A stretch of 64,000 bases of DNA from Porphyromonadaceae bacterium. Lineage in GTDB: Bacteria; Bacteroidota; Bacteroidia; Bacteroidales; Porphyromonadaceae. A program made the translations under genes and the position numbers. Position 1 is the stretch's first letter, and each line of letters begins with the position of its first letter. Below are positions 1 to 53,599 of this stretch, piece after piece. The notes under the pieces are model-generated. The model made no database searches, was not told the origin of the DNA, and worked only from the letters and a program-made list of their open reading frames with translations. The stretch spans positions 1 through 64,000 of the forward strand of contig JAUMYQ010000009.1 in NCBI GenBank assembly GCA_030528555.1, in the 5' to 3' direction.

Positions 1-261
1 GACAGACAAAGTAAAGAAAAAAAAAAAAAACATCAAAATGAGTTGACGAATTTCCTGGAGTATCCTCCAGAAGTCTATGATTGCCGAGCTCTTCGCACGC
101 CGAAAGCGAAGTTTATCAGGGGCAATCGAAGCCCGTTAATCTGGAGCAAGGCGATGACGAAGGCACAGAAATCGCCTCCATAGGCCCCAGGATTTACGGG
201 CCGAAGCAGGAAATTTATATCTAACTGTAATCAAGCGAATTACCTTCCATCCTGAAAGACG
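1..261. other. Left-edge stretch with no recognised gene
   Basis: No convincing reading frame is visible on either strand. It starts with a run of 14 A at 17-30, followed by AT- and GC-mixed sequence with frequent stops. A short hairpin (CTGGAG/CTCCAG) lies near 55-70. It may be the decayed end of something that begins outside the window. Confidence 0.4.
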
Positions 262-378
262 CGAAAAAGCTTCCCGAACTTTTCAAAAAAACTTCCCGAT
301 CTTTTTCCAAAAAGTTCGGGAACTCCCCAAAAAAACTTCGGGAACTTTTTTTCGAGTATTCCCGAGCATTTTTTTGAG
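262..378 (-). repeat. 22-bp-period palindromic array, copy 1
   Basis: Five TCCCGA/TCGGGA cores start at 272, 294, 316, 338 and 360, exactly 22 bp apart. They are separated by T-tract/A-tract palindromes of the type CTTTTTCCAAAAAG. The conserved end unit (TCGGGAATACTCG as read on the minus strand) is at the right, so the copy is in minus orientation relative to copies 2-4. It lies upstream of the flavodoxin-like gene, about 290 bp from its start. It has no coding potential. See copies at 22250, 31358, 41620 and 53333. Confidence 0.9.
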
Positions 379-2790: not shown

Positions 2791-2826
2791 GGGGCGTATC
2801 TCAGACAGTTATGAAGAGTATTGCCA

Positions 2827-5611
2827 ATGGATAGAAGAGCCATCGTCTTTCTTAAACACAAGCATAGCAAAGGGTTTGAATATGCCCCCAATATAGTAGG
2901 TATTGAACGCCAAGGCAACATCTACCGAATAGACTTCGGCAACAGCAAAAGCTACAACTACAGCGCCCAGAATGTTCGCTACTACAAGCTTAAACAAACA
3001 CATCGGAGGGTTCGCCTCTACGACAATGGTCAACTACGAGGACGATATGATGAGCTAGACGACTATGGAGATTACCTCATAGGATACCATTCGGATACGC
3101 AGACTGACCCCATGCGTAAGCATGAAGGGCTGGTGCTTTGTCCTATAAATAGTGACCGAGATCAAGCGCAGAGGCTCCTAGCCTACTATAAGACCATTCT
3201 GGAGCAAGGTATTGAGGTATCGCGCGACATGCCCAACGATGAGGCACCTCTGCCAGAAAAAGACAAACAAAGTATCCGCGATATACAGCTCAGTGCTCTT
3301 GAGCGTATAGATCTCCATGAGAGCCAATCGGTCTGCTCCTACTACATGGAGGGAACAATACCACCACCTACTCCTCTTACTGAGCCTATTATCTATCCGT
3401 TTGGATGTAACGAGAGCCAAAAGCTCGCAGTAGAGACGGCCCTAAGTCATGCAGTAAGCGTAATCGAAGGTCCACCAGGGACAGGCAAAACGCAGACAAT
3501 ACTCAATATTATTGCCAATCTCGTTGTACAGGGCAAGACAGTGGCTGTGGTATCGAACAACAATGCGGCCGTCTTCAATGTCCGCGACAAGCTGACAAAG
3601 TATGGCTATGGTGGCTTGGTCGCTTCGCTTGGTAATAAAGAAAATCGGGCAGCGTTTTTTAATTCCTTACCCAAGGTAACGCTATCCGAGAGCGCACGCT
3701 TGGCCAAAGAAGATCTACACGCCGAGCGCGCAGAGGTAGGGCGTGTCGCAGCCCTGCTCTCGCAGAGCTTTGGCATACGTAGTAGCCTGGCGAAGCTCAA
3801 GACGCAGCTTCTCGAAGCCGAGATTGAGCAGCAGCATCTACTCGAGGAGCAACCCCTTGAGGCCAGAGTACAGATGGAGCTAGATGCCAAGTTTCTCCGT
3901 AAGCTCGATTATCAACGTATACTTAGTCTTAAGGACCTCCTTGAGGATATGATGAGAGGTGGGGGAAAAATACCTTGGCTCGGCAGGCTACGTCTAATGC
4001 TCTCATTTGGCCTTCTTGACCAACGTATCCTAGGGAGGTATAGGGATGAGCTGCTTGTGTATGCCAATCATAAGTTCTATGAGCTATATATTGCCCACCT
4101 CAAGGTAGAGATTGCCTCCAAAGAGGCTTGGCTAGTAGACCACGATGAGGACAAACTCCTCAAAGACCTCACCGAGCGAAGTAGAAAAGTATTCGAAGCC
4201 ATGCTTCTAGAGCGTAAGACTGACACCGATGAGGCATTTACTTTGGAGAAATATAAACAAGAGTTTGACAGCTTCGTCCGTCACTATCCCATAGTGATCA
4301 GCTCTACGCTCTCTCTACCGATGAGCATCCCTAGGGGCTACTTATTTGATTATCTCATCATAGACGAGGCTTCTCAGGTAGATAGTATCAAAGGAGCAAT
4401 AAGCTTCGCTTGTAGCAAACGAGCCGTGATTGTAGGCGACAGCATGCAGCTAGCTCACATCGTAGACTCGAGGAGCCAGGCTGTGGCAGGTGAGGCTTTT
4501 GCTGCCTGTACCCTCCCCGAGCCTTACGACTATGTGCGCCACAGCATCTTATCTTCACTCAAGTCCCTGCTAGGAGTTCGACTACAATGTACCCTACTCA
4601 AAGAGCACTATCGCTGCCATCCTGCCATTATTGGCTTTTGCAATAAGAAATACTACGATGGGCAGCTGGTGGTTATGACCGAGGGAGGGGGATCGCCATT
4701 TAAAATCATTGAGAGGGGGATCGCCATTTAAAATCATTGAGACGAATATCGCCAATGGCAACAACGACTATAGTCAGAGGCAGATAGACGAAACGGACAT
4801 CTACATACGATCATCACTGCTAGAGGAAGGGCTATCTGTAGGTGTCCTTACTCCCTACCGTAAGCATGCCAATGGGCTTCAGGCAACTTTGCCCGAGGAG
4901 GTTGAGGCCGACACGATACATCGCTATCAAGGCAGAGAGAAGGATATCATCCTCTTCAATACAGCGCGCCCAGAGATTACTAGCTTCATGGACAATCCGA
5001 ACCTAATCAATGTAGCTGTATCGAGAGCAATACGAGAGTTTATCATCGTCAAACCCGAGGGCATGGAACTGCCTCATGGGACAAACGTAGGTGACCTCAT
5101 TCGTTATATGATGTATCACGCTCCTGAGGGATGTCAGGTTATTAAGGGGCAGCTGCGCTCCGTCTTCGATATCCTGTATCGAGCATTAGGGGCTCAGAGA
5201 GCCAAACCTCGGGGCATGTTCGATGCCGAGGATATTGTCTGCACCCTTCTACGTGACAACATCTTAGCTTCCAACACTCAGTTCGCCTCTCTAACCTTCA
5301 TCCGAGAGTATAGTTTACGAGATCTGGTGCGAAATCTCAAGGACCTAAGTCCCGAGGAGAGACTGTACGTCAAACATAATGCTCGCCTGGACTTCCTCCT
5401 TTACAGCAAGCTGGACAAATCTCCAGTCCTGGCCATTGAGGTCGATGGTGTGGCCTTCCACTCTACCGCTGAACAGCAAACCAGAGATCGGATGAAGAAT
5501 CGTATCCTGGAGGTTATAGGGCTTCCTCTTTTGAGGCTCTCGACCGATGGTCACAGTGAAGAGCAGCGTATCGTAGAGGCCCTAGAGAAAGCTATTGATA
5601 TCCGAGGCTAG
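2827..5611 (+). pseudogene. SF1 helicase with C-terminal DUF2726-like nuclease, frameshifted
   Basis: One gene is split into two frames. The first (2827-4731) has Walker A GPPGTGKT near residue 216, the DEAS Walker B in YLIIDEASQVD, and HYRCHP. The second carries motif V/VI (RYQGREKD and NVAVSRA), then a PD-(D/E)XK-like segment (DFLLY, LAIEVDGVAFH, RDRMKNRILEVIGLPLLRL) resembling DUF2726. A perfect 28-bp tandem duplication at 4685-4740 adds +1 to the frame and stops the first part at 4731. Removing one unit restores a continuous 918-aa protein. The N-terminal part (about residues 1-200) is not recognised. Either the gene is inactive or the repeat acts as a reversible switch. The intact protein would be an ATP-driven Upf1/Dna2-type helicase-nuclease, possibly for repair or phage defence; that role is inference. 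It stands alone as a single-gene unit. Confidence 0.85.
4685..4740 (+). repeat. Perfect 28-bp tandem duplication inside the helicase gene
   Basis: Units 4685-4712 and 4713-4740 are identical. Each contains GGGGGATCGCCATTTAAAAT. Since 28 is not a multiple of three, the duplication causes the frameshift. The second frame resumes with SPFKIIETNIANG, showing that a single unit is ancestral. Confidence 0.95.
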
Positions 5612-22249: not shown

Positions 22250-22387
22250 AAAAAAACTTCGGGAATACTCGAAAAAAAGTTCCCGAACTTTTTTGGGGGA
22301 GTTCCCGAACTTTTTGGAAAAAGATCGGGAAGATTTTTTGAAAAGATCGGGAAGTTTTTTTGAAAAGATCGGGAAGATTTTTTCGGC
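22250..22387 (+). repeat. 22-bp-period palindromic array, copy 2
   Basis: Six TCGGGA/TCCCGA cores start at 22259, 22281, 22303, 22325, 22347 and 22369, all exactly 22 bp apart. The left end carries the conserved CGGGAATACTCGAAAAAA unit. The last three units are near-identical direct repeats, suggesting recent unit amplification. It is the longest of the five copies, in the 600-bp gap between the convergent SPFH and tpx genes. Nothing else is seen in this gap apart from the two terminators. Confidence 0.92.
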
Positions 22388-31357: not shown

Positions 31358-31473
31358 CAAAAAAATGCTCGGGAATACTCGAAAAAATGTTCCCGAACTT
31401 TTTTCTCGGAGTTCCCGAACTTTTTGGAAAAAGTTCGGGAAGTTTTTTTCAAAAGTTCCCGAAGATTTTTCGC
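31358..31473 (+). repeat. 22-bp-period palindromic array, copy 3
   Basis: Cores start at 31369, 31391, 31413, 31435 and 31457, exactly 22 bp apart, with orientations GGG, CCC, CCC, GGG, CCC. The left end is the conserved ATGCTCGGGAATACTCG unit. Its central spacer is CTTTTTGGAAAAAG. It lies upstream of murC, where the rest of the division/wall cluster would normally be. Confidence 0.92.
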
Positions 31474-31579
31474 ACAGATCCAGAATCAACATAAATAACT
31501 AGTAATAAGTAGCTTAGAAGAAAACCCTCATGAGAGCAGAAAATCTCATCACCCAACCATATCGACCTGACTATACACC

Positions 31580-41619: not shown

Positions 41620-41736
41620 CAAAAAAATGCTCGGGAATACTCGAAAAAATGTTCCCGAACTTTTTTTTCGGAGTTCCCGAACTTTTTCCAAAAAGATCGG
41701 GAAGTTTTTTTTGAAAGTTCCCGAAGATTTTTTAGC
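41620..41736 (+). repeat. 22-bp-period palindromic array, copy 4
   Basis: Cores start at 41631, 41653, 41675, 41697 and 41719, exactly 22 bp apart. The left end matches copy 3 (ATGCTCGGGAATACTCG). Its central spacer is CTTTTTCCAAAAAG, the flipped form of the GG centre in copies 2 and 3. It lies between divergent DPP-IV and rlu genes in a 450-bp gap that otherwise holds only promoters. Confidence 0.92.
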
Positions 41737-53332: not shown

Positions 53333-53458
53333 AAAAACAAGCTCGAGAGTACTCGAAAAAATCTTCGGGAACTTTCAAAAAAAACTTCCCGATCTTTTTG
53401 GAAAAAGATCGGGAACTCCGAAAAAAAAGTTCGGGAACATTTTTCGAAAAGATGGGGT
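53333..53458 (+). repeat. 22-bp-period palindromic array, copy 5, internally inverted
   Basis: Cores fall at 53343 (decayed TCGAGA), 53365, 53387, 53409, 53431 and 53453 (decayed), all on a 22-bp grid. The left end keeps the conserved CTCGAGAGTACTCGAAAAAA-type unit, but the next 80 or so bases match the reverse complement of the copy 4 interior almost base for base. The element lies between tRNA-His and the MATE gene. The rest of 53177-53599 holds no gene. Confidence 0.92.
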
Positions 53459-53599
53459 ACCCTCATAACGCTATAAGAATAAACAAGTTACCATCCCCTA
53501 AAAGAGGAGCACAGTTAGCCTAATGGATGCTATCGACTTTGATACGGCTACCCTTACCATCTATTCGGAAAGAGCGTAGGTAATGCAGCGAAAGCTTAG

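Follow-up and report, generated by a model that had tools for sequence, protein, structure and literature searches.

REP and BIME elements, and the REPINs mobilised by RAYT transposases, are short quasi-palindromes present in many copies; they cluster between genes, their order is mosaic and their orientation alternates, and we know of no fixed pitch in any of them. The matS sites of MatP and the sites of SlmA and Noc are palindromic, spread over the chromosome and bound by a dimeric organising protein; they are single sites, and their motifs are conserved among relatives. Sites repeated at helical pitch and bound cooperatively are found in plasmid iterons (22 bp in R6K) and in ParR centromere arrays (11-bp repeats).

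The arrays described here resemble REP, BIME and REPIN elements in being many-copy short quasi-palindromes in intergenic clusters, and matS, SlmA and Noc sites in being palindromic and spread along the chromosome; they differ from the latter in forming fixed-pitch arrays, and the organising protein is in our case a proposal. With iterons, ParR arrays and the BldC arrays of PMC5859096, they share repeated sites at the helical pitch of cooperative binding, although those systems occupy one locus per replicon or selected promoters, while here many arrays lie along one chromosome. Unlike in REP and REPIN systems, the partner transposase was not found: PF01797, the Y1 (RAYT) family and the only transposase family searched for, is missing from the window's genome and from 22 others of 26 same-genus genomes, including G016, G006, G011 and G012. 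RAYT-driven REP elements are rejected on this result, the window's genome being 85.6% complete. The three congeners with PF01797 are G001, G017 and G023, so that G017, which is rich in arrays, does have one.

Within the same genus, Klein et al. (PMC4596501) give the BrickBuilt MITE as a 23-nt unit, AGAYCATARTATCCTCTCRTRTG, with leader and tail, IS5-like terminal repeats and 19 copies; they also mention 41-, 23- and 22-nt tandem direct repeats earlier described in strain W83, with exact locations not given. BrickBuilt as presented there is, like our arrays, intergenic, dispersed and made of short tandem units of near-equal length. Nevertheless, the 22-bp units of the window's genome do not match the 23-nt unit, and the terminal GAGACC(T/A)TTGCA quoted in that source is unmatched, the aligned flanks showing TAA-N19-TTA dyads. 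The arrays are hence not BrickBuilt, in agreement with an earlier note on this DNA. Nor do they resemble a CRISPR array, given a unit length of 22 and 16-bp inter-core spacers that are common to several loci.

The same note had allowed that the element might already be catalogued. This is not borne out among the literature matches listed, where no paper deals with fixed-pitch arrays across the genus (subscription literature falling mostly outside their scope). Our results suggest that they form an unrecognised system of putative protein landing strips along the chromosome.

Fixed-pitch arrays in the window and its genome

The window, by which we mean the whole 64,000-nucleotide stretch analysed, holds five runs of TC(CC/GG)GA cores in exact 22-bp steps, starting at 272 (5 cores), 22259 (6), 31369 (5), 41631 (5) and 53365 (4). 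Copy 1 (262..378, minus strand) has its cores at 272, 294, 316, 338 and 360, and was also recovered by our sequence model R2 as G000:C10:205-412, where G000 denotes the window's genome. Copy 2 (22250..22387, plus strand) carries six cores at 22259-22374, where an hflK-like gene and a thiol peroxidase gene converge. Copy 3 (31358..31473, plus strand; cores 31369-31462), upstream of murC, and copy 4 (41620..41736, plus strand), in the divergent gap between a peptidase-like gene and a pseudouridine synthase gene, belong to class A, in which the first core is intact. Copy 5 (53333..53458, minus strand), between tRNA-His and a MATE transporter gene, belongs to class B; its four exact cores at 53365-53436 are preceded on the grid by a one-mismatch core, TCGAGA. 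The five places, their coordinates and their pitch were therefore described correctly before, while the five or six cores assigned to each place come down to four exact ones at 53333. A single oriented consensus fits all five arrays. Core pairs 22 bp apart number 20 in the window versus 0 in 50 order-2 Markov sequences of equal length, which excludes a chance product of AT-rich gaps.

The window's genome comprises 1,777,083 bases in 42 contigs. By BLAST and model R2 the element is dispersed throughout it, in at least 111 distinct places (the model's matches, merged by us, with the best 150 of 569 candidates scored). Fifteen of these places reach the very edge of a contig whose length is known: the assembly breaks at arrays, and there are probably more of them than counted. 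In the loci retrieved from this genome, 94 distinct intergenic arrays have at least three cores on the grid, and 340 of their 348 core-to-core steps are 22 bp. At one pair of places (window 218-378 and G000:C16:78017-78220) the right flank is identical over at least 60 bp, so that the duplication there is longer than the array. A different repeat, a 28-bp unit present 2.3 times, lies at window 4685-4754, at the end of the ORF 2821-4731.

The core had been called palindromic, but it is no more than a quasi-palindrome, with CC or GG at its centre; CG or GC in this position occurs in none of 435 grid cores, though the search pattern permitted both. Likewise, an alternation of dyads every 11 bp holds for the middle of the array and not elsewhere, since the second palindrome, CTTTTTssAAAAAG, occupies a single spacer of each array (90 matches over the 94) and the remaining spacers are chiefly CTTTTTTCTCGGAG, GTTTTTTTTGAAAG and ATACTCGAAAAAATG.

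By naive ORF calls, the genes on either side of the 94 arrays converge in 12 cases, diverge in 25, run in tandem in 53 and have no defined arrangement in 4; 20 arrays are overlapped by a short ORF (80-127 codons). The arrays are thus intergenic in all three settings, as the earlier note had it and as the gap-based comparison below bears out. Gene context relative to array direction is 28/25/25/12. In the same naive calls, start codons stay clear of the array by 97 bp or more on the left and 126 bp or more on the right; stop codons approach to 6 bp and 24 bp, respectively.

When 53 of the 94 copies (score of at least 97, full flanks) were aligned, the 112-bp core was 90.6% identical between copies, while the flanks were nearly unrelated (30% on the left, 41% on the right). 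Such a pattern resembles recent spreading. It counts against a protein filament and in favour of the strongest rival, a MITE-like mobile family, in which the array would be the transposase-binding part of a non-autonomous element, the pitch would follow from transposase geometry, and the spacing of copies from target immunity of the Tn7 or Mu type. We consider this family with target immunity unlikely, with roughly a one-in-four standing, although a mobile origin of the arrays is possible.

The flanks hold a further signal. On the right, a TCnGGA site lies one grid step out and a 25-bp AT-rich dyad, TAA-N19-TTA, two steps out, as at 31492..31516 (plus strand), two grid steps past the last core of copy 3. 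With one mismatch allowed, this right-hand dyad occurs in 67 of 82 aligned copies (37/45 of class A, 30/37 of class B), and its left-hand equivalent in 2/45 of class A versus 24/37 of class B; seven control offsets gave 0 to 3 matches. The alignment took 82 of the 94 arrays, eleven having been removed by hand and one by an edge rule, and class B, defined as "first core not intact", is a mixed class. By flank comparison, class B copy 5 has its dyad at 53466..53490 (minus strand). Dyads on both sides of class B copies are what a mobile element might carry at its ends. However, no parent element shorter than 4.9 kb with arrays at both ends was seen, as the places listed in this genome never come within 4.9 kb of each other; no target-site duplication or fixed end is established; and the missing RAYT transposase likewise speaks against mobility.

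Distances between arrays and the nature of the sites

Array density is one per ~15 kb in the window's genome, one per ~10 kb in the congener G017 and one per ~80 kb for the main family of G006, a genome that we assign to P. gingivalis on the strength of the published BrickBuilt unit in it. Among the places listed in the window's genome, 75 neighbour distances on 17 contigs have a minimum of 4.95 kb and a median of 11.6 kb. None is below 4 kb, versus 18.6 expected (the fewest in 5000 trials was 8), and the coefficient of variation (CV) is 0.58 versus 0.90 expected. Comparison with random choice among real gaps of at least 150 bp, over 374 kb of continuous reading with 31 arrays and 28 distances (arrays masked, 29 of 31 within a called gap), gave a minimum of 5.8 kb, 0/28 distances below 4 kb versus 6.7 expected (P<1e-4), and a CV of 0.47 versus 0.82 (P=0.0004). 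With gaps of at least 300 bp the P values are 0.007 for short distances and 0.0085 for the CV. The two-core run C29:55302, which lies 2.6 kb from an array and inside a long ORF, was left out for having fewer than three cores; with it added, one distance falls below 4 kb versus 7.3 expected (P=0.0005, or P=0.025 with gaps of at least 250 bp).

In G017, four distances are below 3 kb versus 9.4 to 12 expected (P from 0.0016 to 0.012 by gap set, the latter for the narrowest). In G006, none of the distances among the 30 places listed is below 18 kb, versus 6.0 expected under uniform placement (P=0.0005; best 18 of 49 and 40 of 51 candidates scored), and adding two 60-bp matches from outside the main count leaves this result unchanged. 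A non-random chromosomal distribution, as matS has, is hence seen in the depletion of short distances in three genomes. The CV, in contrast, is lowered only in the window's genome and is not below chance in G017 or G006, where short distances alone are missing; this counts against the reading preferred below. A minimum spacing would also suit target immunity.

G017 serves as a replicate. In 460 kb of it there are 48 arrays of TGAGGGATATCCCTCA, all 48 within gaps between called genes, and 125 site pairs at 22 bp; one Markov sequence has no such peak. Adjacent units are 92-99% identical in four key site columns, 37-82% in the other site columns and 38-49% in the spacer columns. The key site columns are thus kept while the spacers are not, which is unexpected for dead copies of a mobile element. 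The centre of the site, on the other hand, varies like the spacers (37-38%), which counts against a binding site; the 28 four-unit arrays have a similar column pattern, with a centre that depends on unit position. The units of an array are polar, with 66 concordant and 6 discordant asymmetry directions, and array direction is unrelated to that of neighbouring genes (12/12/11/10). Start codons come within 22 bp of G017 arrays, so the wide start-codon berth in the window's genome is not general.

Folded as single strands, the five arrays of the window do far better than their shuffled counterparts (z -3.4 to -5.7). This favours an RNA or terminator element, in which a transcribed array would form hairpins that end or insulate transcription, and in the P. 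gingivalis-like element described below a GC-rich hairpin, whose arms change together by eye, follows the array. The arms of the array sites themselves do not co-vary. In the window's genome, the A/T positions of the arms are AA in 31 cases, AT in 25, TT in 20 and TA in 14, or 39 paired versus 51 unpaired of 90, and the centres are GG in 37, CC in 37, CT in 7, AG in 3, TC in 3 and GA in 3. In G017, identical half-sites are rarer than expected (14/194 versus 32.5), so that perfect palindromes are avoided, and position 3 is changed on both sides in 18 cases versus 41.8 expected; both deficits are the opposite of what selection for a hairpin would produce. G006 deviates in neither direction over 24 units. 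A hairpin or riboregulator reading of the array itself is rejected on these arm statistics. Placement is moreover independent of gene direction, and Rfam reaches no threshold at the window arrays (tRNA-His alone passes in the window) and gives only matches below the gathering score at the G006 element. We regard an RNA element as improbable.

Sites read by a protein dimer would fit better than hairpins, because the half-sites vary without compensation and G017 avoids perfect palindromes. The strict pitch and this uncompensated variation also lend indirect support to the earlier idea of protein-coatable DNA with two helical turns per unit. Its companion, bent DNA, is not supported: by a dinucleotide wedge table, the predicted end-to-end distance is unremarkable in all five window arrays, bending is equal or stronger in 8 to 78% of shuffled sequences, and the phasing of the A/T tracts is poor.

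Two features of the G017 stretch (G017:C1 1400001-1860000) may be added. Successive arrays keep their asymmetry direction in runs, 13 runs among 45 signed arrays where ~23 would be expected (hand count). The largest stretch free of arrays, 55 kb at ~1477133-1532350 (L352-L355), has genes for a phage tape-measure protein and for a protein with a papain-fold toxin domain, and is probably prophage in part; the tape-measure gene counts in favour of an architectural role. The second-largest array-free stretch (32 kb) holds ordinary metabolic genes, which counts against an architectural role.

Pitch and sequence among related species

As a DNA query, the window's array matched only its own genome and G016 among 26 same-genus genomes, and the model matched only these two, G024 and G028 among 38 family genomes. 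G016 has head-to-tail arrays of its own, CTCTCGGAAC[T/A]TTTT, in which most steps are 22 bp and a few are 23 or 24; its CTCTCGGAAC units are not palindromic, which counts against general palindromy. Across 38 G016 loci (29 distinct places), no array has both flanking genes in common with one of the window's genome, and one similar protein is common to 11 locus pairs.

The other congeners were represented by sampled stretches. Self-similarity of the non-coding DNA is highest at lag 22 in the window, G005, G008, G011, G012, G017, G024 and G028; P. canoris has a weak peak there too (z 2.1), and G002, G013 and G014 have theirs at lag 23. The peak is elsewhere in G001 (21), G006 (41, then 22), G009 (44), G015 (4, then 22), G025 (14) and P. 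loveana (20), and lags 22 and 23 are outside the six leading lags in G003, G004, G010, G018 and G023. Of the 22 samples other than the window, just 11 thus have lag 22 or 23 in the lead, which counts against one ruler throughout; 78 loci from other Bacteroidota peak at 7, 21, 4 and 14.

A strict array finder (periods 12-60, non-coding) found 88 arrays in 19 genus samples, window included: 58 with period 22/44, 15 with 23/46 and 15 with another. Of the 18 congener samples, 13 have at least one array of period 22/44 or 23/46, an equal or almost equal pitch made up of other sequence. The same finder gave 15 arrays in 1.48 Mb of other Bacteroidota, four of them with period 22. Some genomes keep a single pitch (22 in 10/10 arrays of G012, 22/44 in 21/21 of G017, 23/46 in 5/5 of G002). 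Against one pitch per genome, G006 has 14 arrays at 22/44, 7 at 23/46 and 2 at 41, G001 and G025 have 14, 21 and 22, and G013 has 23 and 24; several of the period-23 arrays of G006 are the BrickBuilt 23-bp repeat (dyad test p 0 to 0.15). Array sequences differ among species and include TTTCC....GGAAA, CTATATAG, GACCAGTACTGGTC, AAACGTATACGTTT, the G017 site given above and GATTTATATATAAATC in the P. gingivalis-like G006. At the 5% level, 46 of 78 genus arrays with period 21-23 or its double are more palindromic than their column-permuted versions, versus 0/5 arrays outside the genus and just 1/10 in G012. In G028, from a second genus of the family, a 17-copy 22-bp array of TAATTACCGTTTCTCGGATTAG lies at L288:12946-13325, adjoined by a shorter array of other sequence.

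Tandem repeats are common in AT-rich gaps, and the arrays might accordingly be neutral minisatellites, made by slippage and drifting without function. The coexistence of several periods in G006, G001, G013 and G025, and the gain or loss of whole units between the sister species G006 and G008, would suit this. Slippage, however, should yield many unit lengths, yet 73 of the 88 genus arrays are at 22/44 or 23/46; in G017 the inter-unit spacers are little alike while the key site columns are kept; and arrays avoid one another in all three genomes measured. Neutral minisatellites are in our judgement very improbable.

A pitch common to unrelated sequences requires a ruler, and the simplest would be protein dimers touching at two helical turns. 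We infer a protein, its cooperativity and an architectural role as follows. Each array would be a polar set of about 3 to 7 sites for a putative DNA-binding protein that acts as a dimer; spaced by two helical turns (22 bp, or 23 bp in some species), its dimers would bind cooperatively and form a short filament. Indifference to gene direction, intergenic placement and a minimum distance fit an organising role better than regulation of neighbours; the arrays may thus be chromosome-organising sites, either domain boundaries or nucleation points for a nucleoid protein. As the recognised sequence shifts by species while the pitch persists, the recognition surface of such a protein would have to shift too. 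Our preferred reading, put forward tentatively from sequence comparison and with slightly less than an even chance, is a chromosome-organising element formed by cooperative dimers at a pitch of two turns, with a sequence that varies from species to species. A stronger form, in which Porphyromonas chromosomes are divided by a lattice of minimum-distance, fixed-pitch candidate protein-binding arrays, with one conserved ruler and a species-rewritten sequence as in centromere-like concerted evolution, is doubtful by comparison.

If true, the lattice would be a class of bacterial boundary or anchoring element not described before. Length conserved between species without conservation of sequence points to a molecular ruler, and if a protein filament is that ruler, co-evolving pairs of site and protein form a natural series within the genus, P. 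gingivalis included. The minimum distance between sites would bear on the division of bacterial chromosomes into domains, and BrickBuilt and the 22- and 41-nt repeats of P. gingivalis may gain a common frame.

The P. gingivalis-like element

The array of G006, G008 and G009 is part of a dispersed intergenic body of ~370 bp (for example L305:15282-15640), present in at least 30 places in G006. It includes a 51-bp module (GTTTTCAACAACGAAGACGAGTTTGGAATGATTCTAAATAAG and neighbours) that is 92-98% identical across matches, and the GC-rich hairpin mentioned above. A body of this size with a common module again favours mobility. Against it, the corresponding place in G008 is occupied for all six G006 sites compared, the match of one site (L302) being based on a single flank. 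The orthologous arrays of these sister species differ by exactly one 22-bp unit at three of the six loci and have no indel at the other three. Summed over four pairs (L311 and L296 left out), site columns are ~96% identical, spacers ~89% and the rest ~91%, the L305 pair being without difference, and the 51-bp module is 98.6% identical over all six pairs. In one further G006 copy the module and the array lie ~1.4 kb apart (L309:11202 and L309:12684), as if an insertion had interrupted the element.
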